NCBI RefSeq assembly: GCF_001307295.1
Contig: NZ_CP012700.1
Coordinates: forward strand, 1,677,001-1,741,000
Length of the DNA: 64,000 bases
Reading direction: 5' to 3'
DNA from: Sphingopyxis macrogoltabida
GTDB taxonomy: Bacteria; Pseudomonadota; Alphaproteobacteria; Sphingomonadales; Sphingomonadaceae
How positions within the stretch are numbered: the stretch's first letter is position 1; every line of letters begins with the position of its first letter. The notes below the pieces were generated by a model. That model had not been told where the DNA came from. It did not search any database and saw nothing but the letters and a program-made list of their open reading frames with translations. This document shows, piece after piece, positions 22,026-63,531 of this stretch. The translations under genes were made by a program, and so were the position numbers.

Positions 22026-22046
22026 TTGACCTAGTTATACAACTCG
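22026..22046 (+). promoter_or_regulatory. Regulon motif copy 1 (TTGACCTAGTTATACAACTC)
   Basis: Core AGTTATACAACT at 22033-22044, one mismatch from the palindrome AGTTATATAACT. Located between the divergent crotonase (start 21992) and ACAD (start 22084). TTGACC could also serve as a -35 element, with TATGAC 16 bases later. Confidence 0.75.
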
Positions 22047-22083
22047 CTATGACACAGGTCGCAACAACGGGGCAAGTCCTGCG

Positions 22084-23175
22084 ATGAATTTCGACCTCAG
22101 CGATGAACAGAAAATGCTCGGCGAGCAAGCGCGCGCGCTGTTTGCCGATATGACACCTTTCGACCGGCTGCGCACGCTGATCGATTCGGGCGCCGAATGG
22201 GACGAGCCGCTGTGGCGCGCGCTCGCCGACATGGGCTTCCTCGGCGCCGCGATCCCCGAGGAGTATGGCGGGCTCGGCCTCGGCGCGCTCGATCTCGGCG
22301 TGATCATGGAAGCGCTTGGCGCCGCCAACGCGGCAGTGCCGTTCATGAGCTCGATCGTGCTGGCGGCCGAGGCAATCCGGCTGGCGGGCAGCGAAGCGCA
22401 GAAGGCTGCGTGGCTGCCGAAGCTGGCCAGCGGCGACGCGATCGCAACCTTCGCCTATGCCGAAGGGCCTGGGCCGGTGTTCGCGACGGGCGCGGGGCTG
22501 AAGGGCGGCAAGCTGACCGGCAGCAAGTCGCCGGTCGCCGACGCGGGAATTGCGGACATCGCCATCGTGCTCGTCGCAGGCGGCGGTTTTGTGCTGGTCG
22601 AACTCGATCAGCCAGGCGTGAAGCGCACCAAGCTCGACAGTTTCGACCAGCTTCGCCCGCACTTCCGGATCGATTTCGACGGGGCGGTGGCCGAGCCGAT
22701 GCCTGGCGTCGGCAAGCTCGATCGCCTCATCGATCAGGCGGCGGTGCAAGCGGCGTTCGAAGCGGTCGGGGCCGCCGAGGCGTGCCTGCACATGGCGCGC
22801 GACTATGCGATGGAACGCCAGATATTCGGGCGCCCGCTCGGGGGGTTTCAGGCGATCAAGCACAAGCTCGCCGATGTCGCGGTGGCGACCGAACTCGCCC
22901 GCTCCAATGCCTATTATGGCGGTTGGGCGGCCGAATCCTCGGCCGACGATCTGCCTGCCGCCGCGGCGGCGGCGCGACTGTCGGGCATCAAATGCCTCGA
23001 AATGGCGGCGCGCGAGAATCTGCAGGTACATGGCGGCATCGGCTATACCTTCGAGGCGAATTGCCATTTCTATTACCGGCGCGAGCGGATGCTCGCCGTG
23101 TATCTCGGCAACCGTGGCTTTTGGGCTGACCGGCTGCTGAACGCGCAACCGGGCAGTCAGGTAAAGGCGGCGTAA
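22084..23175 (+). CDS. Acyl-CoA dehydrogenase, small-subunit type (partner of 23177)
   Basis: 363 aa. N-terminal domain with IPEEYGGLGLGALDLG; no SEPxxGSD loop (FAYAEGPGPVFATG instead); C-terminal GRPLGGFQAIKHKLADV and QVHGGIGYTFE. First gene after regulon motif copy 1, followed after 1 base by the large subunit gene at 23177. Third ACAD pair. Confidence 0.9.
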   Translation: MNFDLSDEQKMLGEQARALFADMTPFDRLRTLIDSGAEWDEPLWRALADMGFLGAAIPEEYGGLGLGALDLGVIMEALGAANAAVPFMSSIVLAAEAIRLAGSEAQKAAWLPKLASGDAIATFAYAEGPGPVFATGAGLKGGKLTGSKSPVADAGIADIAIVLVAGGGFVLVELDQPGVKRTKLDSFDQLRPHFRIDFDGAVAEPMPGVGKLDRLIDQAAVQAAFEAVGAAEACLHMARDYAMERQIFGRPLGGFQAIKHKLADVAVATELARSNAYYGGWAAESSADDLPAAAAAARLSGIKCLEMAARENLQVHGGIGYTFEANCHFYYRRERMLAVYLGNRGFWADRLLNAQPGSQVKAA

Positions 23176-23176
23176 C

Positions 23177-24400
23177 ATGGATTTCAACGACAGCCCCGAA
23201 GAAGCCGCCTTCCGCGCCGAAGCCCGCGCCTGGCTTGCCGCCCATGCCCCTGTGCACGAACTTCCCGTCGGCGCAAAGATGCCCGATACCGAAGAGGCCG
23301 ACCGCGGTCGCGCGTGGATGCGCGAGCTTTACGCCGGCGGCTGGTCGGGGCTGACCTTTCCGAAGGCGCTCGGCGGGCGCGGCCTATCTGGAATCGAAGC
23401 GGTGATATTCGCGGAGGAAGAGGGCAAATATCATCTGCCGAAAGGACCGTTCACGTCGATCGGAACCGGCATGGCGCTCCCGGTGATCGCAAAACATGGC
23501 AATGACGAACAGCGGGCGCGCTTTATCGAAGCGACGCTGAAGGGCGACATCACCTGGTGCCAGCTCTTTTCAGAACCTGCCGCAGGTTCCGACCTTGCCG
23601 GGTTGCGCACCAAGGCGGTGCGGGCCGACGATGGCTCGGGCGACTGGATCGTCAACGGGCAGAAGGTCTGGTCGAGCTGGGCGCACCTGACCGACTGGGG
23701 CATCCTCGTCGTGCGCACCGACCCGACGGTGCCCAAGCACAAGGGGCTGACCTTCTTCGTCGTCGACATGAAAACGCCGGGGATCGAGACGCGGCCTATC
23801 CGCCAGATTTCGGGCGCCAGCGAGTTCAACGAGACCTTCCTGACCGACGTCCGCATTCCCGATGCCAACCGCCTCGGCGCCGAGGGCGAGGGCTGGGCGT
23901 GCTGCATGACGGTGCTGATGGGCGAGCGGCTCGGCTCGGGCGCGCACCGCAGCGGCGTGGAACCTTTGCTCGATTTCGCGGCCGCCACCCCCGATGGGCA
24001 TGGCGGAACGATGCTTGACGACCGGTCGATCCGCCAGCAGTTCGCAGAGGCGCTGGCCGAGGAGCAGGGCGAACGCTTTTTTCAGGCGCGCCTCAGGACG
24101 ATGGTGTCGAAGGGCGAGAACCCCGGCGCGCTCGCCGGGATGGTCAAGCTTGCCTATGCTTCGCGCTATCAGAAGACCAACGGCCTCGCGCTCGAACTGC
24201 GCGGCCTCGCGGGGATCGCGCCCGAAGCGGGCGATACCGCGACCGGCGACGTCCAGTACGACTATATCTATTCGACCGTGATGCGCATCGCGGGCGGCGC
24301 CGACGAGGTACTGCGCAACCAGATTGCCGAACGCGTGCTGGGGATGCCCGGCGAAGTGCGCATGGACAAGGACGTGCCGTTCGAGAAGCTGAACGGATAA
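23177..24400 (+). CDS. Acyl-CoA dehydrogenase, FAD-motif (large) subunit
   Basis: 407 aa with LFSEPAAGSDLAGLRT, GQKVWSSWAHLTDWG, EGWACCMTVLMGERLG and C-terminal AGGADEVLRNQIAERVLGMP. Forms the third pair with the 22084 product. The architecture resembles steroid-catabolic FadE proteins with long N-terminal helical arms. It ends at the palindromic element 24405-24481. Confidence 0.92.
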   Translation: MDFNDSPEEAAFRAEARAWLAAHAPVHELPVGAKMPDTEEADRGRAWMRELYAGGWSGLTFPKALGGRGLSGIEAVIFAEEEGKYHLPKGPFTSIGTGMALPVIAKHGNDEQRARFIEATLKGDITWCQLFSEPAAGSDLAGLRTKAVRADDGSGDWIVNGQKVWSSWAHLTDWGILVVRTDPTVPKHKGLTFFVVDMKTPGIETRPIRQISGASEFNETFLTDVRIPDANRLGAEGEGWACCMTVLMGERLGSGAHRSGVEPLLDFAAATPDGHGGTMLDDRSIRQQFAEALAEEQGERFFQARLRTMVSKGENPGALAGMVKLAYASRYQKTNGLALELRGLAGIAPEAGDTATGDVQYDYIYSTVMRIAGGADEVLRNQIAERVLGMPGEVRMDKDVPFEKLNG

Positions 24401-24404
24401 ATTT

Positions 24405-26025: not shown

Positions 26026-26043
26026 ACCTAGTTATATAACTCG
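26026..26043 (+). promoter_or_regulatory. Regulon motif copy 2 (ACCTAGTTATATAACTCG)
   Basis: Perfect palindromic core AGTTATATAACT at 26030-26041, between divergent ligase (start 25994) and double-hotdog hydratase (start 26062, only 20 bases away). Confidence 0.8.
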
Positions 26044-29812: not shown

Positions 29813-29833
29813 TTGACGTAGTTATATAACTCG
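29813..29833 (+). promoter_or_regulatory. Regulon motif copy 3 (TTGACGTAGTTATATAACTC)
   Basis: Perfect core AGTTATATAACT at 29820-29831, preceded by TTGACG. Between divergent thioesterase (29773) and ACAD (29869). Confidence 0.8.
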
Positions 29834-29868: not shown

Positions 29869-31080
29869 ATGGACCTGAGCTATGGCGAGGCGGCGGAGAC
29901 CTTCCGCGCCGAGGTGCGTGCCTTCCTGTCGCTCCACTGGCCGCCGCCGTCCGACCTGCGCGGCGGCGACCTCAAGCAGTTTGTCCGTAACTTTCGCGCG
30001 CTCGCGACCGAACAGGGCTATCTCCATCGCGCGATCCCCAAACGGTACGGAGGTTCCGAGCAACCGGTCGATGTCATTCGCGCACAGGTGATCCGCGAAG
30101 AGTTCCAGCGTGCACGGGCCCCCATGGAGGTCGGCGGCAACGGCATGAACATGACCGTGCCGACGCTGCTCGAAAAAGGGACGGAAGAGCAGAAGGAGCT
30201 CTTCATCCGCAAGACCGTTGAGGGCGATTATATTTGGGGGCAGGGCTATTCGGAGCCCGGATCGGGTAGCGACCTCGCGAGCGTGCGGACCAAGGGCGAA
30301 TTATCCGCCGACGGCAGCAAATGGATCATCAACGGCCAGAAGATCTGGACCTCGCAGGGAATGCAATCGACGCACATGTTCATGCTCGTGCGCACCGAGC
30401 CCGACGCGCCCAAGCATGACGGCATCACCTATCTGTTGATCGACCTCGACCAGCCGGGCGTCACGCGCCGCCCGATCCGTCAGATGACGGGAGAGGAGGG
30501 CGATCATACCTTCTGCGAATTCTTTTTCGACAATGCCGAGACGCCGGTGAGCTGGCAGGTCGGCGAGCGCGGGCAGGGCTGGTATGTCAGCCGCACGACC
30601 CTGAAGCACGAACGTGCGAGCATCGGCGGCGCCGACGGGCTGGGCAAGCAGTTCGCCAAGCTGGTCGATCTCGCCAAGGAGGTCGGCCGCATCGACGACC
30701 CGATCGTGCGCGACAAGCTCGCCCAGATCGAGGGTTCGGTCCTGTCGCACCGCTATTCGAGCTATCGCATCTTCAGTTGCGCCGCGGCGGGCGAGGACCC
30801 CGGCCCGGTGGCGCTGATGATGAAGCTGCTGCTCACCGAGATCGGGCACGAGATGGCGTTGCTGGCGCAGGAACTGATCGGCGAACATGGCTTCCTCGAG
30901 CCCGCGGGCGCGGGCGGGCGTGGCAATCGCGGGCCGCGCGGGCCCGAAAAATGGCTCGACCAGATCATGGGCAGCCTCGGCAATTCGATTGCCGGCGGTG
31001 CGTCGAACATCCAGCGCAACATCATTGGCGAACGCGGCCTCGGGCTGCCGCGCGACCTCGCGATGAGCGGGGAGCGCTGA
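29869..31080 (+). CDS. Acyl-CoA dehydrogenase, FAD-motif (large) subunit
   Basis: 403 aa with GYSEPGSGSDLASVRT, GQKIWTSQGMQSTHM, and C-terminal AGGASNIQRNIIGERGLGLP. First gene of a six-gene operon (ACAD, ACAD, WS/DGAT, DUF7064-like, NMO-like) under motif copy 3. Partner of the short subunit 1 base downstream; fourth pair. Confidence 0.92.
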   Translation: MDLSYGEAAETFRAEVRAFLSLHWPPPSDLRGGDLKQFVRNFRALATEQGYLHRAIPKRYGGSEQPVDVIRAQVIREEFQRARAPMEVGGNGMNMTVPTLLEKGTEEQKELFIRKTVEGDYIWGQGYSEPGSGSDLASVRTKGELSADGSKWIINGQKIWTSQGMQSTHMFMLVRTEPDAPKHDGITYLLIDLDQPGVTRRPIRQMTGEEGDHTFCEFFFDNAETPVSWQVGERGQGWYVSRTTLKHERASIGGADGLGKQFAKLVDLAKEVGRIDDPIVRDKLAQIEGSVLSHRYSSYRIFSCAAAGEDPGPVALMMKLLLTEIGHEMALLAQELIGEHGFLEPAGAGGRGNRGPRGPEKWLDQIMGSLGNSIAGGASNIQRNIIGERGLGLPRDLAMSGER

Positions 31081-31081
31081 C

Positions 31082-32065
31082 GTGCATTTCCACCTGACCG
31101 AAGAGCAGGCAGCCATTCAGGACGCGGTGCGCGGTACGCTGGCCGACAGCTGGCCGATGGAGCGTGTCCATGCCTTTGCCGATGGCGACGCCGATTTCGA
31201 CCGCACAAGCTGGTACGCGCTGATGGCCCTCGGGCTTGGCGGGATGCTGGCGCCGGACAGCGGCATGGGGCTGCTCGACGCGGCGCTCGTCTGCGAAGTC
31301 GCGGGTGAGGCGGCAGCGGCAGGCCCGCTGATCGGGCAATTGCTGGCCGTCGCGGCGGTGGCCGCGAGCGGGCGGGGCGATGCCGAGGCGCTCATAAGCG
31401 GCAAGACGATCGCGACGTTGATCCATGGCGGCAGCGATTACGCCCCATCCGCTCGCGCTGCCGACCTGTTCTTGATCGTCGATCGCGCAAAGGGCGTCCG
31501 TCTGGTTGCAGCCGCCGATGTCACCATCGAAGCTGTGAAAGCGGCCGACCGGACTCGTCCGATGTCGAAAGTCTCCATCGCCGATGGCACAGGCGAAGCG
31601 CTTTTCGCTGCCACCGATCAGATGACCGGGCGTCTCGCCGACGCCGCGCTCGTCCTGGTCGCCGCCGACGCGCTCGGCGGCGCGCAGAAGGTCACCGACA
31701 TGAGTGTCGCCTATGCCAAGGAACGCGAGCAGTTCGGCCAGCCGATCGGGCGTTTCCAGGGCCTCAAACACCAACTCGCGCATATGGCGCTCGACGTCGA
31801 ACCGGCGCGCGCGCTCGTCTGGTACGCGGCCTATGCATGGGATGCGCAGCTTCCCGACGCGCCGCGCGCCGCGGCGATGGCGAAGGCGCATCTCTGCGAC
31901 GTCTATGTCCGCGCGACGCGCGCGGCGGTCGCGGCGCATGGCGGCATCGGCTATACGTGGGAATATGGCCTCAACTACTGGTTCCGCCGCGCGATGGCCG
32001 ACCGCGCCTGGCTCGGCAGCCCCGCCGAACATCGTGCGCGGGCTGCGACCCTCGCGGGCTGGTAG
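31082..32065 (+). CDS. Acyl-CoA dehydrogenase, small-subunit type (partner of 29869)
   Basis: 327 aa, GTG start at 31082 (MHFHLTEEQAAIQDAV). Lacks the SEPxxGSD loop; the C-terminal domain shows GQPIGRFQGLKHQLAHM and AAHGGIGYTWEYGLNYWF. Shorter than a full ACAD. Its start lies right after the stop of the large subunit. Confidence 0.88.
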   Translation: MHFHLTEEQAAIQDAVRGTLADSWPMERVHAFADGDADFDRTSWYALMALGLGGMLAPDSGMGLLDAALVCEVAGEAAAAGPLIGQLLAVAAVAASGRGDAEALISGKTIATLIHGGSDYAPSARAADLFLIVDRAKGVRLVAAADVTIEAVKAADRTRPMSKVSIADGTGEALFAATDQMTGRLADAALVLVAADALGGAQKVTDMSVAYAKEREQFGQPIGRFQGLKHQLAHMALDVEPARALVWYAAYAWDAQLPDAPRAAAMAKAHLCDVYVRATRAAVAAHGGIGYTWEYGLNYWFRRAMADRAWLGSPAEHRARAATLAGW

Positions 32066-32068
32066 ACG

Positions 32069-33433
32069 GTGAACGATCCGCTGACCCTTGCGCCGGGTGT
32101 GCGGCGGCTGCGCCCCGACGATCATTTCATGATCCTGTCGGAAACCGACGCCTCGCCTATGCACGTCGGCGCGCTAATTCTGCTCGACGTCCCGGCCGAT
32201 GGGCAGGACGATTTCGCCGCGGCGATCCGCCGCCAGTTCGCCGACCGGCTCCCCGCCACCCCCTTGCTCGTGCGGCTGCACGAGGCGCCCGACGGTTATG
32301 ACAGCGACGTCTGGGCCGACATCGCACGCGCCGATCTCGAAACGCTGGTCGCGGTCGAGCCGCACGACGGCGCGTGGAGCGAGGCCGAGCTTTACGATGC
32401 GGTCGCGCGGCTCAACATGCGCCGCCTCGACCTGTCGGGCCCGCCGTTCGCGGCGCACCTGTTCGAACGGCTCGCCGAGGGCGGCAGCGCGATCTACCTC
32501 AAGATGCATCACAGCGTCGCCGACGGCATCGGCTTTCAGACGGTGCTCGGCCTGCTGAGCGACGCCGCACCGCCGGCGACCGCGCGCTTCGCCGATGCAA
32601 GGCTGCCCGAACCGGAGAAATGGCGTTGCAAGGCCGATGCGCGCTTCGCGGACGAAGAGGCGCTGCGCGCGGCGCAATCGGCACGGCGCAAGCAGGCCCT
32701 CGCCGAACTCGACGCGTTCAAGGACGACCGCGAACCGACGCCGCAGCTTGCGATGTCGGGTCCGACCTCGGACAAGCGCCGCTATGCGACGATCAGCCTG
32801 CCGGTGGCGCGCGTGAAAGCGGCGGGGAAGGCGCTGGATGCGACGGTCAACGATATCTTCCTGACGCTCGCGAGCACCGCGCTGCGCAATTATCTCGGCG
32901 AAATGGGCGATCTTCCCGATACGCCGCTCGTGATCAATTCGGCGCGTTCGTACCGCCGCGACGAGCATGGGTCTTTCGGCAACCGAATCGTAGCGCTGCA
33001 TCCTCATCTCGCGACGCATCTCGTCGATCCGGTCGCGCGGCTGCGCGCGATCCAGGCGTCCATGGCGAAGGAGATGCAGCGGACAGCGCACGACGAGGCG
33101 CTGCTCGACGCTGCCGAAAAGCCTTATGGCGCGCGCGATCGGCGTGCTGCGTTCGCTGAGCGTCTGGCGGGCGGCAAGCGCCTGCTTCCCGGCAATCTGA
33201 CGCTGTCGAACGTTCCCGGCCCGGCCGAGGCGCGTAGCTATGCCGGTTTCCGCCAGCGCCACAATTATCCGGTCCCGATCATCGGTTCGGGCCGCTTCCT
33301 CAACATCACTTCGCGGCGCAGCGGCGACAATCTCGACATGGGCGTAATCGCCGATGCCGAAAAGATCGCCGATGTCGGCCGCATCGCGGCGCTGTTCACC
33401 GCTGCACTGGACGAACTGGAGATCGTCGCATGA
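32069..33433 (+). CDS. WS/DGAT-family acyltransferase
   Basis: 454 aa wax ester synthase/diacylglycerol acyltransferase family protein. Active-site motif HHxxxDG in LKMHHSVADGIGF at about residues 148-160; C-terminal domain NDIFLTLASTALRNYL and the conserved NLTLSNVPGP. These enzymes esterify acyl-CoA with an alcohol or diacylglycerol. Its place within a degradation operon suggests it esterifies the substrate, an alcohol intermediate, or stores acyl groups; the acceptor is unknown. GTG start at 32069; stop overlaps the next gene (ATGA). Confidence 0.9.
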   Translation: MNDPLTLAPGVRRLRPDDHFMILSETDASPMHVGALILLDVPADGQDDFAAAIRRQFADRLPATPLLVRLHEAPDGYDSDVWADIARADLETLVAVEPHDGAWSEAELYDAVARLNMRRLDLSGPPFAAHLFERLAEGGSAIYLKMHHSVADGIGFQTVLGLLSDAAPPATARFADARLPEPEKWRCKADARFADEEALRAAQSARRKQALAELDAFKDDREPTPQLAMSGPTSDKRRYATISLPVARVKAAGKALDATVNDIFLTLASTALRNYLGEMGDLPDTPLVINSARSYRRDEHGSFGNRIVALHPHLATHLVDPVARLRAIQASMAKEMQRTAHDEALLDAAEKPYGARDRRAAFAERLAGGKRLLPGNLTLSNVPGPAEARSYAGFRQRHNYPVPIIGSGRFLNITSRRSGDNLDMGVIADAEKIADVGRIAALFTAALDELEIVA

Positions 33434-34488
33434 CCGAAGACCTTGCCTTCAAGCCCGAAGACGACCGCTACCACCAACTCTCCGATGATCCCTATGAGAC
33501 CGAGACCAACTGGTGGTCGTTCAACATCCCCGAACGCAAGATCGGCTGCTGGATCCACGCGCCCTATTATCCCAATCGCAAGGCGATCACCTGGCGCATC
33601 TTCGCTTGGGACGACGAGGGATATGATCAGGCGCGCATGGCCTATTACCGCAAGGTCGAGGAAGCGCCGATGCCCGACGCCCCCGACCTGACCGACATCA
33701 CCTTCCCCGGCGACAAGAATGGCGGCGGCTATAGCCTCAGGATGCTCGAGCCGGGGATGAAATATCATCTGCAATATGAGGACCCGGCCCGCGGCTTTGC
33801 GCTCGATTTCACCCACACCGGCCTGCACGAACCGCATCGCTTTCCGCCGGGCAAGCCGCCGTTCATGGCGACGCCGCATTACGACCAGCTCGGCCATGTC
33901 GAGGGCTGGATGACCCTGCGCGGCGAGAAGATTCGCATCGACGGCATCGGGGTGCGCGACCGGACGTGGGGGCCGCGCGGCGGGCCCTATGCTGCGAGCC
34001 CCAAAGTCTATGCCAGTGACATGGAGCGCGTGAAATACCCCGGTGGCGCACGCTGGCGCGAGATCGAGCGCGAGCGTGGCCGCGGGCGCATCCAGTACAT
34101 CTTCGGCCATCGTCGCGACGGTACCGGCTTCCTCGGCTTTGCGCGCGTGCAGGACGGCGACGCCGACGGCTGGTCGCCGATGAATGCCGGCTGGATCCGC
34201 CGCGACGGGCAGTTCGGCAGCCTCGACACTGCCCGGTCGCGGATGCGCGTCTTTCGCAGCCCCAAGACCGGCTGGAGCATGCATATGCAGGTCGAGCTCG
34301 TCGACGAGCATGGCCGCGAGATGAAGAGCGAGGGCTTCACCGTCTCGACAATGAGCGAGGCCGGATATGGCGTGAACCAGTTGATGCGCTGGGACATTGA
34401 CGGCGGCATCGGCTGGGGCGAGGATCAGGATGTATGGAATCCGCAGCATTATCTGCGGATGCTCGATGCGCTGAAAGCTACCGTTTGA
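33430..34488 (+). CDS. DUF7065/DUF7064-type protein (CrtC-like fold), unknown
   Basis: 352 aa. Tryptophan- and tyrosine-rich N-terminal half (ETNWWSFNIPERKIGCW) and a C-terminal half with HVEGWMTLRGEKIRIDG and GIGVRDRTWGPR. The GxGxRDxxWGxR segment is characteristic of the DUF7064 family, a lipocalin-like fold group distantly related to hydroxyneurosporene synthase CrtC and frequent in steroid/terpenoid catabolic clusters. The reaction is unknown; a water-adding or hydrophobic-ligand-binding role is plausible. Family assignment is from memory. Confidence 0.65.
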   Translation: MTEDLAFKPEDDRYHQLSDDPYETETNWWSFNIPERKIGCWIHAPYYPNRKAITWRIFAWDDEGYDQARMAYYRKVEEAPMPDAPDLTDITFPGDKNGGGYSLRMLEPGMKYHLQYEDPARGFALDFTHTGLHEPHRFPPGKPPFMATPHYDQLGHVEGWMTLRGEKIRIDGIGVRDRTWGPRGGPYAASPKVYASDMERVKYPGGARWREIERERGRGRIQYIFGHRRDGTGFLGFARVQDGDADGWSPMNAGWIRRDGQFGSLDTARSRMRVFRSPKTGWSMHMQVELVDEHGREMKSEGFTVSTMSEAGYGVNQLMRWDIDGGIGWGEDQDVWNPQHYLRMLDALKATV

Positions 34489-35423
34489 CGGCAATATTTT
34501 CCGCACTGTCGCTGCCGCTGATGTGCGCGCCGATGAGTTTTGCCTCATCGGTTCCCTTGGCTGTCGCCTGCTGCCGCGCGGGCGTGGTCGGGGGCTGGCA
34601 GGGCGGCACGATCACCCCGTCCGAACAGTTCGAACATTATCTGAAAGCGCTCGCCGGGATCGACGGTGCGCCGCCGATCGTCAACATGCCTGCGCGATGG
34701 GGTACCGATCCCGCGGCGGCCGACCGGCTCGGCCTGCTCGAACGCTATCGAGTGCCGCTCGTCCTCTCCAGTCTCGGCGACCCGTCCGCGCTGGTCGAGC
34801 GCGTCCATGGCTGGGGCGGGCGTGTCGTTCACGACGTGACGACGATGAAGCACGCCGAAAAGGCGATCGCCGCCGGCGCCGATGGGCTGATGCTGACCTG
34901 CGCGGGGGCGGGCGGGCATACGGGGTTCCTGACCCCGATGGCATTTGTTCCGGCGGTGCGGCGAATGTTCGGCGGGCTGCTGATCGTCGCGGGCGGCATT
35001 GCCGATGCGCATGGCATTGCGGCGTCGCTGGCACTCGGCGGCGACATCGCCTGTATGGGCACGCGCTTTATCGCGACCCCCGAAAGCGGGGTGGTCGAGG
35101 GGCATCGGACCATGATTCCCGCCGTGAGCGCTGACGACATCGTCGCATCGGCGGCGATGAACGGCGTCCCGGCGCACTGGATGCGGCAGTCGATCGAGGC
35201 GGTCGGGCTCGACGTAAAGGCTTTACCAAACGTCCGCTCGCCGATGCCCAAAGGCGTGATGCCCTGGCGCGACATCTGGAGTGCGGGGCAAAGCGCCGGG
35301 CTGATCGATGCGGTGGAGCCCGTCGCCGAGCTGGTCGCGCGGTTGAAGTGCGAGTTCGAGGCGCTGCCCGCGACCACCGACTGGCGTACACGCCTCGCGA
35401 CAATTGCGGCGGACTGGTCCTAG
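34485..35423 (+). CDS. Nitronate monooxygenase-family flavoprotein
   Basis: 312 aa FMN-dependent TIM barrel of the NMO/2-nitropropane dioxygenase family: N-terminal LPLMCAPMSFASSVPLAVAC, phosphate-binding strands ADGLMLTCAGAGGHTG and LLIVAGGIADAHGIA, and MGTRFIATPES. It starts at TTG 34485 overlapping the previous stop (TTGA). Members of this fold act as NMOs or as FMN reductases in acyl-CoA catabolism (IpdC in steroid ring degradation). Function here is inferred only from context. Confidence 0.82.
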   Translation: MTAIFSALSLPLMCAPMSFASSVPLAVACCRAGVVGGWQGGTITPSEQFEHYLKALAGIDGAPPIVNMPARWGTDPAAADRLGLLERYRVPLVLSSLGDPSALVERVHGWGGRVVHDVTTMKHAEKAIAAGADGLMLTCAGAGGHTGFLTPMAFVPAVRRMFGGLLIVAGGIADAHGIAASLALGGDIACMGTRFIATPESGVVEGHRTMIPAVSADDIVASAAMNGVPAHWMRQSIEAVGLDVKALPNVRSPMPKGVMPWRDIWSAGQSAGLIDAVEPVAELVARLKCEFEALPATTDWRTRLATIAADWS

Positions 35424-36448: not shown

Positions 36449-36473
36449 TAGAAGTATAACTAGGTTATATAAG
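36449..36473 (-). promoter_or_regulatory. Regulon motif copy 4 (TATAAC-TAG-GTTATA)
   Basis: 15-base palindrome TATAACTAGGTTATA at 36455-36469; on the minus strand it reads ACCTAGTTATAC, the shared consensus. Between divergent MDR (36421) and NMO (36493). Confidence 0.7.
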
Positions 36474-40574: not shown

Positions 40575-41642
40575 TCACCCGATCAACCGGATCAATTTCT
40601 CGGCTTCGGCGAAATTGCCGCGTACCAGGCGGTCGAAGAAGCGCCCGGTCTCGGCGCTCAGGATACCCTTAGCCGCCTGCGCGACCTTATATTCGAGGAT
40701 GCACCCGCCCTTGAACATCGCGAGGATCAGATAATAGTCGAAGCTTGCCATGCTGCGGCCGGTGCCCGCGGCATAATGCGCCATCAGCTCCTGCCGCGTC
40801 GGCCAGTCCATGACGTTGTAGAGCGCCTTTTCGGGGACATGGCCGGGGAAGCGGTCGTCGCGAATGCCGTTGCAGAACCAGGCGAGGTCGAGCAGCGGAT
40901 CGGCGATCGTCGACAGTTCCCAGTCGATCAGTGCGGTCAGCCGGCACGGCGGATCGAACGCGAAGAGCGCGTTGGGCGTCCCGACATCGCCATGGATGAT
41001 GCCCGGACGGAAATCGCCGGGTCGGTTCGCGCGCAGCCAGTCGCGGGCGAGCGCATAGCCGCGCAGTTCGCGCCATTCGAAATCGTAAAGCTGTTTGTAG
41101 CTTTTGATCTGGCCTTCCCAGCGATCGACCTGCCGTTCGAGGAAATTGTCGGGGCGGCCGAAATCCTCCAGCCCCACCGCTTTATAATCGACATTGGCGA
41201 GCGCAATCAGCCCGTCGACCATCGCGAAGGGCACTTCGCGCGCGTACGGCGGTTTGTCGAAGGGCGGGCGATCGTGGATCTTGCCGTTGGTCAGATCGGC
41301 GGGCCAGCCGGTGACAAGGTCCATGACATAGAAGGGGGCGCCGATAACTTGCGGGTCGGCGCAGCTACCGTGGCAGATCGGGTGGGGAACATCGGTGCCG
41401 TTCAATGCGGTCAGCACACGCGCTTCGCGCAGCACGCTTTTCTCGCTCCCCGGCGGCGGCACCGCGGGCGGACGGCGCAGGATCAGCGTCTGCGCACCGC
41501 GATCGAGCGACAAGATGACGTTCGACGTACCGCCGTGAATCTTTTCGACCTTCAGCGGCCCGTCACCGAGCGCGGGGATATTGGCGTCGAGCCATTCGGT
41601 CAGCCGTGCGGGATCGGCGAGCCCTTTCACCTCGCCGCTCAT
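40575..41642 (-). CDS. Phosphotransferase (APH fold), ACAD10/11 kinase-domain-like
   Basis: 355 aa. APH-family kinase: ATP-lysine strand LILRRPP, catalytic loop GIIHGDVGTPNALF (HGD-x4-N), and metal-binding LIDWELSTIADPLLDLAW. This type is the N-terminal domain of human ACAD10/ACAD11 and is the separate LvaA protein in Pseudomonas levulinate catabolism, where it phosphorylates 4-hydroxyacyl-CoA. Paired with the ACAD at 39200, it points to handling of a 4-hydroxyacyl-CoA. Its start overlaps the MarR gene stop (ATGA). Confidence 0.9.
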   Translation of the reverse strand: MSGEVKGLADPARLTEWLDANIPALGDGPLKVEKIHGGTSNVILSLDRGAQTLILRRPPAVPPPGSEKSVLREARVLTALNGTDVPHPICHGSCADPQVIGAPFYVMDLVTGWPADLTNGKIHDRPPFDKPPYAREVPFAMVDGLIALANVDYKAVGLEDFGRPDNFLERQVDRWEGQIKSYKQLYDFEWRELRGYALARDWLRANRPGDFRPGIIHGDVGTPNALFAFDPPCRLTALIDWELSTIADPLLDLAWFCNGIRDDRFPGHVPEKALYNVMDWPTRQELMAHYAAGTGRSMASFDYYLILAMFKGGCILEYKVAQAAKGILSAETGRFFDRLVRGNFAEAEKLIRLIG

Positions 41643-42097
41643 CCATCGCGCTCCCTCAGATAGGCTTCGATGTCGGTGCGGATCGCGTGTATCCGCGCCG
41701 CGGCATCGGCGAAGGCTTCGCTGCCGACACGGCCGACGACCGCCCGGGTTACCGCACTGGCGCGGTCATGGTCGGCGGCTTTCAACGCGTGCCCCGCATC
41801 GGTCGCGACGATCAGCGAGGCGCGCTTGTGGTCGGGGTTGTTGCCGAACGCGACGAGGCCGAGTTCGGCCAGGCGATTCGCGGCACGCTGCACGACCTGT
41901 CGCGGGTGCCCGAGACTGCGTCCGATCTGCGCGACCGTCGGGGGCGCAGCGGCATTCACCACCGCGGTCAGCACCGTCAGTTCCATCTCCGGCAGGCCGC
42001 TCGCGGCGCGCGTGTCGGCATAGAGCGCGCGCATCCGCCCGCGCAGCCGCGACACCTCGTCGGCGAATCGTTCGAAATCGGTGAAGCGCTGTGACAT
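41639..42097 (-). CDS. MarR-family transcriptional regulator
   Basis: 152 aa winged-helix regulator: VAQIGRSLGHPRQVVQRAANRLAEL is the recognition region, followed by the wing NNPDHKRASLIVATDAG. It opens a run with the phosphotransferase, ACAD10/11-like, hydrolase and SDR genes. Palindromes at 42108-42132 upstream are good autoregulatory operator candidates. The ligand may be an acyl-CoA or a phenolic-like compound, as in other MarR proteins. Confidence 0.88.
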   Translation of the reverse strand: MSQRFTDFERFADEVSRLRGRMRALYADTRAASGLPEMELTVLTAVVNAAAPPTVAQIGRSLGHPRQVVQRAANRLAELGLVAFGNNPDHKRASLIVATDAGHALKAADHDRASAVTRAVVGRVGSEAFADAAARIHAIRTDIEAYLRERDG

Positions 42098-43426: not shown

Positions 43427-43443
43427 TATAACCTAGTTATGTA
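43427..43443 (+). promoter_or_regulatory. Regulon motif copy 5 (TATAACCTAGTTATG)
   Basis: Reads ACCTAGTTATG with an inverted TATAAC arm in front (43427-43441). Lies 13 bases upstream of the SMP-30 start and 55 bases before the SDR at 43496. Confidence 0.7.
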
Positions 43444-43495
43444 TGTCTTGACACGCGCCGGGCGAACGCGCAACCCTGTGCGGAGGGAGAGACAC

Positions 43496-45836: not shown

Positions 45837-46607
45837 ATGGAAAACGGCAACGCACGCATCCGGGTACCGAAGACATCCGAACTGGTCGCCGACCAGATTC
45901 GGGCCCAGATCGTCCGCGGCGAACTCAACGAAGGGGATTCCCTCCCGCCCGAGGGCACGCTGATGGCGACGCTCGGCATTTCGCGGCCGACGCTGCGCGA
46001 GGCCTTCCGCATTCTCGAGGCCGAAAATCTGATCAGCGTCGTGCGCGGATCGCGCAGCGGCGCCCGCGTCCATCGCCCGTCGACCGAACTGGTGTCGCGT
46101 TACGCGGGCTATGTGCTCGAAGCGCAGGGCACGACGATCGCCGACCTTTACGCGGCGCGGCTTGCGATCGAGCCGACCGTCGTGCGCTGGCTGGCGACGG
46201 CCAAGGGACAGACGCCGGATTTCGCGCGGCTGAAGCAGGTGCTCGCCGACCTGGAAGAGATGCTCAAGACCGAGAGCTATGCCGAGTTCGTCGATAATGT
46301 CTCGATCTTCCACCAGACACTCGTCGAGGCGACCGGCAACAAGACACTGAGCTTTATGAATCGCATGTTGCTCGACCTCGGCCGCCACCACCAGAACGAC
46401 TATCAGCGCCGCCATCCGCGGACGACCGAAGACAAGTACAAGAGCCTTCGCGCCGGTCACAAATCCTTCGAGAAGCTGGTGACGATGATCGAGGACGGCG
46501 ACGTAGAGGGCGCGGTCGCGCATTGGCGCCTGCACCTGCGCAATGCGAACGAGACCTGGGGCGCGCGCGGCGAGGCCGAACGGATCGTCGACTCGCTCCA
46601 CGGATGA
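45837..46607 (+). CDS. GntR-family regulator (FadR/FCD type)
   Basis: 256 aa. N-terminal winged helix: IRAQIVRGELNEGDSLPPE, ISRPTLREAFRILEAENL, RGSRSGARV; the C-terminal helical FCD domain has the metal/effector pattern with conserved D and H residues (DNVSIFHQTLVEATGN, RAGHKSFEKL). Acyl-CoA or carboxylic-acid responsive in many relatives. Start ATG at 45837 (TTG at 45831 possible). Overlaps the ligase start by ATGA, so regulator and ligase are cotranscribed. A possible reader of the AGTTATATAACT motif, unproven. Confidence 0.9.
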   Translation: MENGNARIRVPKTSELVADQIRAQIVRGELNEGDSLPPEGTLMATLGISRPTLREAFRILEAENLISVVRGSRSGARVHRPSTELVSRYAGYVLEAQGTTIADLYAARLAIEPTVVRWLATAKGQTPDFARLKQVLADLEEMLKTESYAEFVDNVSIFHQTLVEATGNKTLSFMNRMLLDLGRHHQNDYQRRHPRTTEDKYKSLRAGHKSFEKLVTMIEDGDVEGAVAHWRLHLRNANETWGARGEAERIVDSLHG

Positions 46608-49000: not shown

Positions 49001-50482
49001 TCACGCTTCCTGCTTCGGGAAGATCGGGGCGCCGACGCCGATGGTGACGGTCTTGTAGTGAAGGAATTCGTCGATCCCGGCCTTGCCTCCCTCCTTGCCG
49101 AAGCCCGAGATGCCGATACCGCCGAAGGGCGTGTGCGGATTGATCTGGAAACCGCCATTGTTATAGACGCCGCCCGCGCTCAGCCGCTCGGACAGGCGGT
49201 GGACGCGCTGCAGATCGTTCGACTGGATATAGGCGGCGAGGCCATATTCGCTGTTGTTGGCGATCGCGACCGCCTCATCCTCGGTGTGGAATTTCATCAC
49301 GACGACCGCGGGGCCGAAAATCTCGACCTGACTGATCTCGTGATCGGGGTCGGCATCGACGATCAGCGTCGGCTCGATGAAATTGCCGTCGGCCAGTTCG
49401 CCGCCGCAGCGTCCGCCGCCGAGCTCGAACTTTGCTGCACCGTCGACCTTCGCACGCTCGAACATGCCGAGAATACGGTCGACCGCGGCCTTGTTGATCA
49501 CCGGCCCGACCGCGACGCTCGGGTCCATCGGATCGCCGACCTTGAACTGCCCGATGATGGCTTTGAGCCGCGCGACGAAATCGTCATAGACGTCGGCATG
49601 GACAAGCTGGCGGGTGGGGAGGGCGCAGCCCTGTCCCGACAGGCAGCCGACGGTCCAGAACACCGCGCGTTCGGCCGCCGCCTGCAAATCACAGTCGGGA
49701 AAGACGAGGCTCGCCGACTTGCCGCCGAGTTCCATCACCGACGGCTTGATCTCCTCGGCGCAGGCGGCGAGAATCTTGCGGGCGGTTATCGGCCCGCCGG
49801 TGAAGCTGATCTTGCGGATTTTCTTGTGCCGGACGATCGCCTCGCCCGCCTCGGCGGTGCCGGGCAGGATCGACAGCACGCCGTCGGGAACCCCGGCCTG
49901 CTTGCACAATTGGGCGAACATCTCGGGCGCGAACGGCGTGATTTCGGCGGGTTTGCAGATCACGCAATTGCCCGCCGCGAGCGCCGCCGCGACCTTCATG
50001 CCGAGCGAGATCAGCGGGCCGTTCCAGGTAATGATGATGCCGACGATGCCGATCGGCTCGGGTACCGTGTAGCTGAGTTCGCCGCGCGTATCGAAGGTCG
50101 AGATCAGCTCGCCCGACATCTTGTCGCACCAGCCGGCATAATAGCGCGTCCAGCCGACCGCGGTATCGACGCCGCGCTCGCCGACCATCAGCGTCGTGCC
50201 GCCATCGAGCGCCGCCATTTCGGCGAGGGTGCGCTTGTTCGCCTCGAGCAGGTCGGCGAGCCGGTTCAAAATGTCGCGCCGCGTTTCGGGTGGGGTCCGG
50301 CGCCAGTCCTCCTGCACCCCCGCCGCCCTCGCGACCGCTTCCTCGACTTCCTTTGCGCCGGCAAGCGGAATGTCCGCCTGCACGACCTGTTTAACCGGAT
50401 GCAGGTGCGGGTGTGTCCCGCCGCTGCCGCTCGTGCGCTGTTCATGTCCCAGATGGAGATGTACTGCCGGTGCGCTGGCCAT
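49001..50482 (-). CDS. Aldehyde dehydrogenase
   Basis: 493 aa NAD(P)-dependent ALDH: WNGPLISLGMKVAAALAAGN, catalytic Glu in VMELGGKSASLVF, nucleophile Cys in CLSGQGCALPTR, and EIFGPAVVVMKF. Oxidises an aldehyde to an acid for CoA activation. Located between the P450 and the SDR in one operon, so it probably handles an aldehyde formed from a terminal alcohol produced by the P450. Confidence 0.93.
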   Translation of the reverse strand: MASAPAVHLHLGHEQRTSGSGGTHPHLHPVKQVVQADIPLAGAKEVEEAVARAAGVQEDWRRTPPETRRDILNRLADLLEANKRTLAEMAALDGGTTLMVGERGVDTAVGWTRYYAGWCDKMSGELISTFDTRGELSYTVPEPIGIVGIIITWNGPLISLGMKVAAALAAGNCVICKPAEITPFAPEMFAQLCKQAGVPDGVLSILPGTAEAGEAIVRHKKIRKISFTGGPITARKILAACAEEIKPSVMELGGKSASLVFPDCDLQAAAERAVFWTVGCLSGQGCALPTRQLVHADVYDDFVARLKAIIGQFKVGDPMDPSVAVGPVINKAAVDRILGMFERAKVDGAAKFELGGGRCGGELADGNFIEPTLIVDADPDHEISQVEIFGPAVVVMKFHTEDEAVAIANNSEYGLAAYIQSNDLQRVHRLSERLSAGGVYNNGGFQINPHTPFGGIGISGFGKEGGKAGIDEFLHYKTVTIGVGAPIFPKQEA

Positions 50483-50506
50483 AATCTTGTCTCCCGATGA
50501 AAATTG

Positions 50507-51700
50507 TCAGGCGTCCCACGCCAGATGCAGATGTTCGAGCGCCATCACGCTGCCGCCGCGGCAGGTCTCGTCGCCCTTGGTGACTTGCCGGAAATGGCCG
50601 ATGCGGCCGAACCAGGCGCGATAGAAGACGATCAGCTCCATCCGCGCCAGATGCAGGCCAAGGCAGGTGTGGATGCCCGATCCGAACGCGGCGTGCCGAT
50701 AGAATTGACGCTCGACCGACACTGTTTTGGGGTCCTCGGTCAGCCCCTCGTCCCAGCCGACGAGCGGCAGCGGGGCGAGGATGCAGTCGCCGGCGAAGAG
50801 CTTTACGCCTTCGAGTTCGGTGTCTTCGACGACATAGCGCGGGGTCGCGACGAAGGCGTAGCGCCGCAGCAATTCCTCGACGAGATTGGGGATCACCGAC
50901 GGGTCGTCGATCGCGCGCTGGCGAAGGGTATCGTCGTGCGCGAGATGGCGCATGCCGAAGCTCATCGCATTGGTCACCGTGTCGAGCCCGGCGAGGAACA
51001 TCAGGAAGCCGATCGACATCAGCTCCTCGAAACCGAGTTTGCGCCCATCGACTTCGCTGACGATGATTTTCGAGATCATGTCGTCGCGCGGCTCGGCCAT
51101 GCGCTGCTGGATCAGTTCGGCGAGATGGCCGACGATTTGCTGCGCCAGATTGTTGCGGACCTCGTTGCTCGCCTGCGAATGAAAAAAGCCGGTGACGAGG
51201 TGGCGGAACTCGTCGAACTTCTCCATCGGAAAGCCGAACAATTCCATGAACACCGCGACGGGAAGGCGCGATCCGATCGCCTCGACGAATTCGCATTCGC
51301 CCTTGCCGGTCACGCCGTCGAGCAACTGGTCGGTCCAGGCGGTCACCCGGTCTTCGAGCGGTTCGATGGCTTTCGATTCGAAGAAGGGGCGGAGCATCTG
51401 CCGGTATGGCCGGTGCTCGGGCGGATCGAGCATCTCCGGAATCATCTTCGGCTGGTCGGGATTGGGCGGGATCGACAGGTAACGGCTCGAGAAGATCTCG
51501 GGATGTCGCACGACATGCTGCACCGACGAACCCGTGTTGCACACCCAATGGCCGCCATGGGCATTGGTCCAGAACACCGGCGGCGCGGTTTCCTTGAGCT
51601 CCCAATAGCGCGCGTGGCAATCGGCGAGCACGCCGGGGTCGGCGATATAATCGAACTCATGCACCGGTGTACGCACCGGTTGCACTGACGACTCGGTCAT
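50507..51700 (-). CDS. Cytochrome P450 (CYP101-like)
   Basis: 397 aa soluble bacterial P450. I-helix AGLDTVTNAM, ExxR in LVEELLRRYAF, heme loop FGSGIHTCLGLHLARMEL with the Cys ligand. Overall style (MLDPPEHRPYRQMLRPFF, FMELFGFPMEKFDEF) is that of P450cam and other terpene hydroxylases. It needs a ferredoxin and reductase, which are not in the window. First gene of the P450-ALDH-SDR operon, facing the TetR gene across a perfect palindrome. Start 51700 has AGAGGAGAGG upstream. Confidence 0.93.
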   Translation of the reverse strand: MTESSVQPVRTPVHEFDYIADPGVLADCHARYWELKETAPPVFWTNAHGGHWVCNTGSSVQHVVRHPEIFSSRYLSIPPNPDQPKMIPEMLDPPEHRPYRQMLRPFFESKAIEPLEDRVTAWTDQLLDGVTGKGECEFVEAIGSRLPVAVFMELFGFPMEKFDEFRHLVTGFFHSQASNEVRNNLAQQIVGHLAELIQQRMAEPRDDMISKIIVSEVDGRKLGFEELMSIGFLMFLAGLDTVTNAMSFGMRHLAHDDTLRQRAIDDPSVIPNLVEELLRRYAFVATPRYVVEDTELEGVKLFAGDCILAPLPLVGWDEGLTEDPKTVSVERQFYRHAAFGSGIHTCLGLHLARMELIVFYRAWFGRIGHFRQVTKGDETCRGGSVMALEHLHLAWDA

Positions 51701-51719: not shown

Positions 51720-51743
51720 ATATGTAAACGACTGTTTACATAT
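51720..51743. promoter_or_regulatory. 24-base perfect palindrome, likely TetR operator
   Basis: ATATGTAAAC-GACT-GTTTACATAT between P450 and TetR starts. Arms are perfect complements. The position 19 bases from the P450 start and 20 from the TetR start fits repression of both genes. Confidence 0.85.
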
Positions 51744-51763: not shown

Positions 51764-52327
51764 ATGGCCGCGACGATTACCGATACACCCGCGCGCGACG
51801 CCGACCGGACGCGGCAGGCAATCCTTGATGCTGCGCAGCAAATATTCGCCGAAAAGGGGTTCGCCGAAGCCGGCGTCCGCGACATCACCGCGCTTGCCGG
51901 CGTCAACCCGTCGCTGGTCAGCCGCTATTTCGGCGGCAAGCTCAAGCTTTTCGAGGCGGCGCTCGACGCGGCGCTCAACACGCGGATGATGACCGACCTG
52001 CCCAAGGACAGCTTTGGCAAGGCGATCATGGAGCGCTTTGCCGACGACGACGACCGCGTCAGTCCGCTGCCGATGATGTTCAGCGCCGCGTCGGACAGCG
52101 AAGCGCGCGCGGTGGCGCAGCGGCTGCTGCGCGAACGTGTGTTCGAACCGCTCAAGCACTGGTTCGGCGGCAAGGATGCCGACGTGAAGGCGGCGCGCTT
52201 CATGATGGTCTCGCTCGGTTTCTTCGCCTATCGCGACCAGCTTCCGCTCGCCGAGTTCGCAGGGCGCGTCGAACCGGGGCTGCGCCGCTGGCTGGAAAGG
52301 GAATTCCAGGCCATCGTCGACGACTGA
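51764..52327 (+). CDS. TetR-family regulator
   Basis: 187 aa. N-terminal TetR helix-turn-helix TRQAILDAAQQIFAEKGFAEAGVRDITALAGVNPSLVSRYFGGK pattern (given in part: AGVNPSLVSRYFGGK) and an all-helical ligand domain. Divergent from the P450 operon. Start ATG 51764 with GGGGAGTG; a TTG at 51743 lies inside the palindrome and is unlikely. Downstream ACAD operon is convergent. Confidence 0.92.
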   Translation: MAATITDTPARDADRTRQAILDAAQQIFAEKGFAEAGVRDITALAGVNPSLVSRYFGGKLKLFEAALDAALNTRMMTDLPKDSFGKAIMERFADDDDRVSPLPMMFSAASDSEARAVAQRLLRERVFEPLKHWFGGKDADVKAARFMMVSLGFFAYRDQLPLAEFAGRVEPGLRRWLEREFQAIVDD

Positions 52328-56909: not shown

Positions 56910-56930
56910 CGACTTGTATAACTAAGTCAA
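56910..56930 (-). promoter_or_regulatory. Regulon motif copy 6 (TTGACTTAGTTATACAAGTC on minus strand)
   Basis: Near-identical to copy 1. Between divergent hydratase (56875) and SDR (56960). Confidence 0.75.
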
Positions 56931-60802: not shown

Positions 60803-60803
60803 C

Positions 60804-61598: not shown

Positions 61599-61621
61599 TT
61601 AGCAATCAAAGGAAGTAAGGC

Positions 61622-62416: not shown

Positions 62417-62435
62417 ACCGGAACAGGACAGAGAT

Positions 62436-63455
62436 TTGAACGCACCCCAGCAGTTTCCGTTTGCCCGCCAGTCGGCGGGTCCCGCGCCGCTGCGCCGTCC
62501 GGGGTCGATCCGGCGGACCACGTCGATCGATTCGGACTGGCCCGACGGCTTCGGCGAACCATGGATCATGACCGGGCGGGGACGCGACTTGCTGACCCCG
62601 TTCGATGGTGGTGCGATCGAGGTTGCGAGCGGCGGTTTCACCATCAAGGCGTCGCCGCTGCGCGAGATACTGGCGATCGATATCTCCGCCGACCATCCAC
62701 GGGTCGACGAGATGGTCGGGGTGCGCGCGGGCGGCGCGAGCCGGACGGCACTGGCCGACGTGCTGGGCGACCTGCGCGGCACGCCGCTGTTCCAGGTGCT
62801 CGACGATTATGCCGGTGCCAGTCTTGTCGCCGGGTGGATCTGGTCGCGCTGGAGCGACGACTGGCATCAGCGGATGGCGAGCAACCGCGCCAGATCGGGC
62901 GCGAGCAGCAAGGGGCGGATGGTCAACATTTGTACCGGCTTCACCGAAGGCGGCAGTTCGCTGACCGCGGACGGCGACGTCGATCACAGCGACCAGTCGG
63001 CGACCGAGGTCGGCCCGCTGGCGAATCCCGACGACCCTATCGGCTGGCACGACATGCCGGTGCAACAGGGACGCCCGCTCGCCCGCCGGGCACGGCGAAT
63101 CGACGTGTGGCGCGGCGAAGGGGTGCTGAAGGTCGATGCCGCCTTTCAGGACAGCGGCCCGAACCCGCAGGGGACGCGTACCGCGATCCACGAATATCGC
63201 GTTTATGCAGAGGTCGCCGAACGCAACGGCACCTTGCTTTCGCTCCAGGCGCTGCCGCTGATCCTGCCGTTCCGCGAATGCCCCGGCGCCTCGATGAAGG
63301 CGACGCGGATGGTCGGGCAGCACGTCGGCGAGTTCCGGCAGGCGGTTCTCGACACGCTGGTCGGCACGGTCGGCTGCACCCACCTCAATGACGTCCTGCG
63401 TGCGCTGGCCGACGTCCCCGTCTTGGCAAGTTTGTTGCCGAAAGAAGCGGAGTAG
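62436..63455 (+). CDS. DUF2889-domain protein
   Basis: 339 aa, TTG start at 62436 (AGGACAGAG upstream; the first ATG is well inside). N-terminal RRPGSIRRTTSIDSDW, middle EVASGGFTIKASPLREILA, C-terminal LPLILPFRECPGASMKATRMVG and GTVGCTHLNDVLRALAD. The pattern CPGA...CTHL is the DUF2889 signature; two Cys and a His might bind a metal. Function unknown. Last gene before the TonB receptor. Confidence 0.75.
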   Translation: MNAPQQFPFARQSAGPAPLRRPGSIRRTTSIDSDWPDGFGEPWIMTGRGRDLLTPFDGGAIEVASGGFTIKASPLREILAIDISADHPRVDEMVGVRAGGASRTALADVLGDLRGTPLFQVLDDYAGASLVAGWIWSRWSDDWHQRMASNRARSGASSKGRMVNICTGFTEGGSSLTADGDVDHSDQSATEVGPLANPDDPIGWHDMPVQQGRPLARRARRIDVWRGEGVLKVDAAFQDSGPNPQGTRTAIHEYRVYAEVAERNGTLLSLQALPLILPFRECPGASMKATRMVGQHVGEFRQAVLDTLVGTVGCTHLNDVLRALADVPVLASLLPKEAE

Positions 63456-63512
63456 CGCGATTTTTTCGCCCTTTCCGCAGCGGAAGGCGTAATCCACTTG
63501 TCTGTCTTGTTA

Positions 63513-63531
63513 GACTTAGTTATATAACTGG
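63513..63531 (+). promoter_or_regulatory. Regulon motif copy 7 (GACTTAGTTATATAACTGG)
   Basis: Perfect core AGTTATATAACT at 63518-63529, 45 bases before the TonB receptor start. Only copy that is not between divergent genes. Confidence 0.8.

Follow-up and report, generated by a model that had tools for sequence, protein, structure and literature searches.

What holds a long island of catabolic genes together in an alphaproteobacterium? The question is raised by a stretch of 64,000 nucleotides from Sphingopyxis macrogoltabida (RefSeq assembly GCF_001307295.1, contig NZ_CP012700.1, here C1; C1:1677001-1741000 of a genome of 5,098,553 bases), which we call the window. Its initial annotation described seven copies of one operator-like motif, six in gaps between divergent operons and the seventh ahead of a TonB-dependent receptor, as the mark of a single regulon of 43 kb. 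We suggest that 11 operators of the form ACYTAGTTATAYAAST would place nearly all of the catabolic island under the control of a single local regulator, most likely GntR1, a GntR repressor of the FadR subfamily (FCD domain) whose own operon would be controlled through site S5.

An operator shared across the catabolic island

A consensus search of the window with up to three mismatches gave 12 matches, where shuffled sequence would give 0.16; they fall at seven places and include every copy first described. Exact ACNTRGTTAWAYAWS stands in five of the seven, with 0.00 expected. Gene calls agree with the earlier placement, six sites falling in divergent gaps, one ahead of the receptor and none within a gene. 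The inverted half-sites reported for the fourth and fifth copies are also there, in the arrangement ATAAC-TAG/CTA-GTTAT, with the right side weaker in both. Across the 5.1 Mb genome, the exact 12-mer TAGTTATAYAAC has five copies, all in one 74 kb stretch that reaches past the window, and the 15-mer of the initial annotation, with at most one mismatch, has nine matches, eight of them within C1:1699029-1773154. A weight matrix trained on ten sites and run over 180 kb around the island, the remaining genome being covered by pattern searches, found 11 sites of at least 23.3 bits between C1:1699026 and 1773137; ten of these are the training sites, and all 11 are intergenic. Six simulated sequences of 180 kb held no match of 15 bits or more (maximum 12.9). 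Among the 12 loci outside the island that were scored from the three-mismatch pattern list, the best reached 17.5 bits and is intergenic (C1:2542534). The match at C1:288896, below 14 bits on the matrix, was set aside, and the three-mismatch tier of the whole-genome pattern search was discarded as noise (its reversed control gives 95 and 100 matches). On these searches the motif is concentrated in the island.

Four of the matrix sites (C1:1745511, 1747561, 1764893 and 1773137; S8 to S11) lie beyond the window, so that the regulon stands while its extent of 43 kb does not, the sites spanning 74 kb. Between C1:1693731 and 1774719 we called 76 genes, 67 of which belong to directons headed by a site (directons were inferred from strand alone, and the minus directon of S11 contains a 0.8 kb uncalled stretch). 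Sites occupy nine of the 11 divergent gaps and none of the ten convergent gaps of the island, where intergenic DNA makes up 4.6%. The products of the site-headed directons, as named by Pfam, include acyl-CoA dehydrogenases, an enoyl-CoA hydratase, an AMP ligase, a MaoC/FAS1-type dehydratase and thiolases, together with CaiB-type CoA transferases, ChsH2-type OB proteins, a TonB receptor and an MFS transporter.

The motif is also kept in relatives. The Ltp-type thiolase, used as the query in one scan of named genomes, led to 78 loci, of which 47 are on the sphingomonad side (L087-L128, L141-L143, L151 and L153, including Henriciella L128 and some unclassified bins); a site of at least 20 bits is present in 37 of these 47 and absent from ten, its usual positions being before the receptor, in the gap between the genes for GntR2 (a second GntR regulator) and an amidohydrolase, and before the thiolase. 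We aligned two orthologous gaps with MAFFT without reference to the motif, keeping motif-less loci and removing near-duplicates from the 47. The motif proved to be the best 15-column block in both, at 0.77 against a mean of 0.37 in the thiolase gap (39 sequences) and 0.85 against 0.39 in the amidohydrolase gap (40 sequences), which is the outcome that the initial annotation had expected of such an alignment. Individual sites have counterparts as well, S2 at L078:528 and S6 at L077:9826, and the counterparts of S7 precede orthologous receptors. In G056, a genome of another genus with a rearranged island, sites still stand ahead of the orthologs of the S1, S2, S6 and S8 units, with a weak one at S9 (15.0 bits). 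The exact motif ACNTAGTTATAYAAS is found in 24 of 80 genomes of the genus and is absent from 56. Because the motif is specific across the genome, purely intergenic, conserved in orthologous gaps and absent from those 56 genomes, the sequence evidence supports a single island-wide regulon, larger than first described and covering about 80 kb of genes.

Over 100 non-redundant sites the constraint reads ACYTAGTTATAYAAST, with about 16 constrained positions; the palindromic core first proposed, AGTTATATAACT, is a part of it but not the whole. The arms of the 16-bp dyad are ACYTAGTT and AACTARGT, the right half being degenerate in sphingomonads, and the Rhodococcus site L135:9507 holds the perfect dyad ACTTAGTTAACTAAGT. 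Scored on sphingomonad sites alone, the dyad centres rank 13.5 (5.9), 7.0 (5.45) and 11.5 (5.0), whereas in 17 distinct Rhodococcus sites, some of them near-copies, centre 11.5 scores 4.29 against 3.64 and 3.4. We prefer 11.5 because these 17 sites favour it; the true centre probably differs from that of AGTTATATAACT. The Rhodococcus dyad is TAGT-TA-ACTA, with a spacing of 2; TAGTTATAYAA matches the subfamily form TNGT-N3-ACNA in full only with C at position 15 (25/100 sites).

GntR1 as the candidate regulator

Five regulators were found in the island: a MarR-family protein (41639), GntR1 (45837), TetR1 (51764), GntR2 (C1:1745585) and TetR2 (C1:1753849). Two of these, the MarR-family protein and GntR2, had gone unnoticed in the initial annotation. 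GntR1 has a winged helix-turn-helix (PF00392, 62.2 bits, cut-off 27) and a C-terminal FCD domain (PF07729, 73.3 bits, cut-off 24.3); no NCBIfam model reaches its cut-off on it, and its nearest solved structure by sequence is NanR 6on4. At E 1e-30 it is matched in 27 of the 80 genus genomes, at 71% identity or more in exactly the 24 that carry the motif and in none of the 56 that do not; the remaining three hold relatives of 37-44% only, and no motif. Among 199 family genomes the motif occurs in six (our own, G056, three g38 genomes and G190), and a GntR1-like gene of at least 48% identity in our own, G056, the three g38 genomes and two g73 genomes. Four of 21 named genomes have no GntR1 at E 1e-15 (S. 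wenxiniae, Sphingobium OAS761, S. azotifigens and Sphingomonas TDK1), and their loci contain neither the exact motif nor a match of 11 bits or more to the refined matrix built on the 100 sites; two of them, S. wenxiniae and OAS761, still have GntR2-like genes (43% and 34%). In the 300 bp upstream of the gene, that matrix finds a match of at least 10 bits for 15 of 38 GntR1 homologs of at least 48% identity and for six of 12 weaker homologs, five of the six in Rhodococcus; some of the 15 sites had served to train the matrix, the Rhodococcus ones had not. The initial annotation had named the GntR/FadR gene at 45837 as the best local candidate, a choice that this co-occurrence and the upstream sites bear out: on sequence grounds, GntR1 is the best candidate among the five island regulators, both TetR genes having been tested only in part.

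Several observations weigh against assigning the motif to GntR1. None of 16 GntR1 copies examined in its own genus has a site within 300 bp upstream; in our genome the gene belongs to the S5 directon, and control of GntR1 in the genus would have to run via S5 or another site at an operon head. GntR1 and the sites travel in one island, so that linkage confounds their co-occurrence, and it is the discordant genomes that carry the weight of the argument. Here G280, G283, G289, G141 and G194 have GntR1-like genes of 48-54% without the exact motif; G280 does have two strong variants of it, while G283, G289 and the two g73 genomes show only weak matches of 13 to 16 bits, and the helix-turn-helix of the GntR1 relatives in these last four is nearly identical to that of GntR1. 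Helix-turn-helix residues, tried as a discriminator between motif-rich and motif-poor relatives, gave no discrimination. Conversely, G190 and G291 each have one motif match and no GntR1 match of 48% or more; G291, a Cellvibrionaceae bin, has a 38% GntR1-like gene, and the single G190 site, with no GntR1 match, may be a chance occurrence. Finally, GntR1 keeps by eye only two of the usual FCD metal ligands (the Asp/His set).

The closest competitor is GntR2, which, alone or with GntR1, might bind the regulon motif as a master repressor autoregulated through S8. Two facts that count against GntR1 alone speak for it: S8 lies in the GntR2/amidohydrolase gap, i.e. in the promoter of GntR2 itself, and the recognition helix SRPTLR[EQ]A is common to both proteins. 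Furthermore, the motif is present in 33 of the 42 GntR2 gaps listed (some loci being duplicates), among the 80 genus genomes GntR2 is confined to 22 of the 24 that carry the motif, and redundant GntR pairs are described in Corynebacterium (PMC2230225). Against this, the motif occurs without GntR2 (at E 1e-15) in the three g38 genomes and in G211, all of which have a GntR1-like gene, and GntR2 occurs without the motif in S. wenxiniae and OAS761, which both lack GntR1; GntR2 as the sole binder, at first favoured for the S8 site in its promoter, was dropped. G211 is 100% complete in three contigs, while the other motif-positive genus genome without GntR2, G239, is fragmented. A second conserved palindrome in the GntR2 promoter (C1:1745510-1745585) also suggests a separate operator for this protein: a distance of 64 bp separates AACAGRTAYCTGTT, close to the start codon, from AGATACCT at the edge of S8, and AGRTAYCT has no copy beyond these two in 180 kb. 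The 42 gaps (some duplicates, some close relatives) hold 45 copies where shuffled gaps hold 0.36; 30 gaps have at least one, and Sphingobium Sx8-8 (L111), which has lost the S8 motif, retains AGRTAYCT. The absence of AGRTAYCT from the other 12 gaps counts in the opposite direction. We regard AGRTAYCT as probably a separate, putative GntR2 operator, and a role for GntR2 at the regulon motif as unlikely. It is more unlikely still, to a degree that we would call very improbable, that some other regulator binds the motif, be it the MarR-family protein, either TetR or the product of an unlinked gene. A+T-rich palindromes are common as MarR operators, and the MarR gene lies within the S5 minus directon; yet a search of 60 genomes at E 1e-12 failed to find it in 14 that carry the motif (one of them, G263, 73% complete), for which it was rejected as the binder, and it is present in the motif-free G285 and G286. 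A search of 78 kb surrounding the G211 island, where the motif is present, gave no TetR1, and the only two divergent gaps that lack a site are those of the TetR genes, each gap having its own palindrome.

Mode of action and known systems

Where the sites lie bears on how they would work. At S2, S4, S5, S9 and S10 the distance from the end of the core to a start codon is 11 to 28 bp, and because the sites at S2, S5, S9 and S10 end 11 to 20 bp from the called start codon, a promoter cannot fit between site and gene. Read from the sequence, TTGACC-N16-TATGAC spans S1 and, on the minus strand, TTGACT-N17-TTTAAT spans S8, and in the S9 gap a conserved ctggacaa...catatc stands just upstream of the site. 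The operator thus appears to lie over core promoters, and therefore one dimer could block both promoters of a divergent pair, a geometry that suggests a repressor. The TTGAC that the initial annotation saw before copies 1, 3 and 6 is indeed there but is not general: TTGA[CT] is found at the left edge in just six of the 100 non-redundant sites, which weighs against the repressor geometry, in that promoter overlap rests on few cases. Some FCD regulators activate, e.g. CitO (PMC4746285), and the S11 site is 73 and 86 bp from its start codons, so that the sites might instead bind an activator; at S2, S5, S9 and S10, however, a site this close to the start codon should cover the -10/+1 region, and we think activation quite improbable, somewhat more so than binding by GntR2. 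That the motif is simply a constitutive -10 box of A+T-rich divergent gaps, as its TATAAC-like core could suggest, is hardly credible: some 16 positions are constrained, the 12-mer has no exact copy elsewhere in 5.1 Mb, 84 upstream windows taken from this genome as controls hold no refined-matrix match of 10 bits, and the motif is missing from 56 of the 80 genus genomes. A plain -10 element had been named at the outset among the findings that would overturn the regulon, and the genome scan speaks against it.

We consider it likely, from the sequence comparisons above, that GntR1 binds the 11 operators, represses nearly the whole island and senses a pathway intermediate. A GntR1 dimer would bind the 16-bp dyad ACYTAGTT/AACTARGT, and with the site between the -35 and -10 boxes or over the transcription start, a single dimer would silence both divergent operons. 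An intermediate of the pathway, probably an acyl-CoA or a carboxylate, would be held in the FCD domain and release GntR1, and this release would switch on receptor, transporter, ligases, dehydrogenases, hydratases and thiolases together.

A single local repressor over dozens of steroid-like beta-oxidation genes, as proposed here, has a parallel in the KstR regulon of actinobacterial cholesterol catabolism, though KstR is a TetR protein, and its operator and genes differ from those of the sphingomonad island. Within its own subfamily (NanR, LldR, PdhR, FadR), GntR1 is typical in having the GntR winged helix-turn-helix and the FCD domain above Pfam cut-offs, and its proposed operator, an A+T-rich dyad with a TAGT core, is close to the subfamily consensus TKGT/ACMA (PMC4494728); it departs from the subfamily in the GT-to-AC spacing, which is 2 in the Rhodococcus dyad where 3 is usual, and in the degenerate right half in sphingomonads. 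Local repressors have likewise been proposed for sphingomonad steroid clusters, such as EdcR and the TetR and AraC genes of bsd in Caenibius tardaugens, and these clusters share with the island the two-subunit acyl-CoA dehydrogenase (ACAD), the MaoC hydratase and the ligase (PMC12882949, PMC8700777). In bsd, however, TetR and AraC regulators act with cluster-local palindromes, while here one GntR/FCD regulon would hold about 67 genes; the main text of the bsd paper does not mention GntR (PMC12882949). Corynebacterium glutamicum also has two GntR regulators in one catabolic circuit with FadR-type operators, and the names GntR1 and GntR2 are shared with it by coincidence; there the sites are shared and the proteins redundant, whereas GntR2 of the island seems to have a palindrome to itself (PMC2230225). 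In titles and excerpts of the literature, the letters of the motif turned up only as the 12-mer in a mouse-genetics paper, and none of the titles listed points to a GntR regulon of this kind in sphingomonads. This is probably a new catabolic regulon of the FadR/FCD type, and three things set it apart from the routine: how large it is, the proposed second GntR layer and an operator that seems to cross phyla. In Sphingopyxis, Novosphingobium and further sphingomonads with islands of this type, some 80 kb of anonymous beta-oxidation genes become one regulon to which an operator and a candidate regulator can be assigned. The operator would also offer a reporter assay for the substrate, the compound that releases GntR1 being the inducer of the pathway.

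The operator may extend beyond the Proteobacteria. Of 213 upstream windows from 13 actinobacterial loci, 18 have a match (neighbouring genes share some of these), all in three Rhodococcus loci and none in the other ten. In two annotated Rhodococcus plasmid stretches, five of five and eight of eight matches of at least 9 bits lie in gaps, and in each stretch one such match precedes the GntR1-like gene; some of the matches are weak and some are near-copies between loci, and a simulated null for one stretch gave five matches of at least 9 bits in 600 kb. Eight plasmid records have a GntR1 match, and three were examined, two from Rhodococcus and one from Sphingomonas paeninsulae. It is possible, although we hold the following only tentatively and with some doubt, that regulator and operator travel together across phyla, with GntR1 types of Sphingomonadales, Henriciella and Rhodococcus (38-46% identity in Rhodococcus) reading a near-identical 16-bp dyad beside Ltp/ChsH2-type thiolase genes. 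The sphingomonads would have added a second tier, namely GntR2 (without FCD metal ligands by eye), a target of GntR1 via S8 with its own palindrome 64 bp off, and two TetR sub-modules would lie outside this two-tier circuit for one steroid- or terpenoid-like substrate. If the operator is indeed preserved from alphaproteobacteria to plasmids of Rhodococcus, as it appears to be, it would offer a case for studying how regulator and operator move together with a catabolic pathway.

The S. paeninsulae record is an 850 kb plasmid (NZ_CP032828.1) from Antarctic soil, with similar catabolic genes, a few motif-like sites, and a GntR1-like (54%) as well as a GntR2-like (42%) gene. GntR2-like genes are also present in Parasphingopyxis and Henriciella. 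Histidines included, the FCD domain of GntR2 shows by eye none of the usual metal ligands, and the protein may sense something else or nothing.

Features of the island and its TetR modules

Features of the window and of GntR2; positions are those of the window unless prefixed C1 or L031
Feature	Position	Strand	Pattern match start	Description
S1 minus directon	16731..21992	-		five genes: thiolase, SDR-like (by eye), two acyl-CoA-dehydrogenase-type (one by eye), enoyl-CoA hydratase
Putative operator S1	22029..22044	+	22029 (+)	ACCTAGTTATACAACT; divergent gap, enoyl-CoA hydratase (21992, -) / acyl-CoA dehydrogenase (22084, +); matrix score 33.7
Putative operator S2	26026..26041	+	26026 (+)	divergent gap, acyl-CoA ligase (-) / FAS1/MaoC-type dehydratase (+); plus-strand start codon 20 bp off
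Putative operator S3	29816..29831	+	29816 (+)	divergent gap, acyl-CoA thioesterase-like gene (-) / acyl-CoA dehydrogenase (+)
S3 plus directon	29869..35423	+		five genes: acyl-CoA dehydrogenase, a second one by eye, WS/DGAT-type acyltransferase, Rv3169-like, FabK-like
Putative operator S4	36450..36465	-	36451 (-)	weaker right half; divergent gap, Zn-dehydrogenase (-) / nitronate-monooxygenase-like gene (+)
MarR-family gene	41639..42097	-		S5 minus directon; rejected as binder
Putative operator S5	43431..43446	+	43431 (+)	weaker right half; divergent gap
GntR1	45837..46607	+		GntR/FCD regulator, 256 aa, proposed binder of all sites
TetR1 palindrome	51721..51742	.		TATGTAAAC-GACT-GTTTACATA, probable TetR1 operator; divergent gap without regulon motif
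TetR1	51764..52327	+		probable local regulator of the motif-less module
Putative operator S6	56912..56927	-	56913 (-)	divergent gap, enoyl-CoA-hydratase-like (-) / SDR-like (+), both named by eye
Putative operator S7	63514..63529	+	63514 (+)	45 bp ahead of the TonB-dependent receptor start codon (63575)
TonB-dependent receptor	63575..64000	+		start of gene, 801 aa, runs past the window; directly behind S7
GntR2	C1:1745585-1746307 (L031:8585-9307)			FCD-domain GntR regulator, 4.6 kb outside the window

S5 heads a minus directon with SGL, SnoaL and MarR genes and a plus directon with SDR genes, GntR1 and a ligase. In the S3 plus directon, the Rv3169-like and FabK-like proteins are both under the NCBIfam cut-offs. 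Scans of the window for tRNAs and Rfam families gave no matches.

The nine genes without a site-headed directon form two blocks, each with a TetR gene, and these two modules appear to lie outside the regulon. To the TetR1 block belong the P450-like and aldehyde-dehydrogenase-like genes at 49001-51664; the arms TATGTAAAC and GTTTACATA of its palindrome are perfect. A second palindrome, TTGACG-TATC-GTCAA, lies at C1:1754495-1754630 between TetR2 and a divergent four-gene block that has no regulon motif, and both palindromes are probable local TetR operators.

As to the substrate, the solved sequence nearest to the Ltp-type thiolase is 6ok1, a lipid-transfer protein, and Ltp/ChsH2-like pairs presumably point to the cleavage of steroid-like or branched side chains; a literature search for the pathway substrate found related steroid clusters and no match to the island. 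At L032:9505-10023 there is a match of 172 aa to the end of the Amidohydro_3 profile only, perhaps a gene remnant. A few kb to the right of the last site lies a tyrosine-recombinase-type integrase (PF13356 and PF00589; C1:1777937-1779220, L033:937-2220), and on the same side of the island there is a tRNA-Lys at L033:11560. Given the nearby integrase, the island may once have been mobile.

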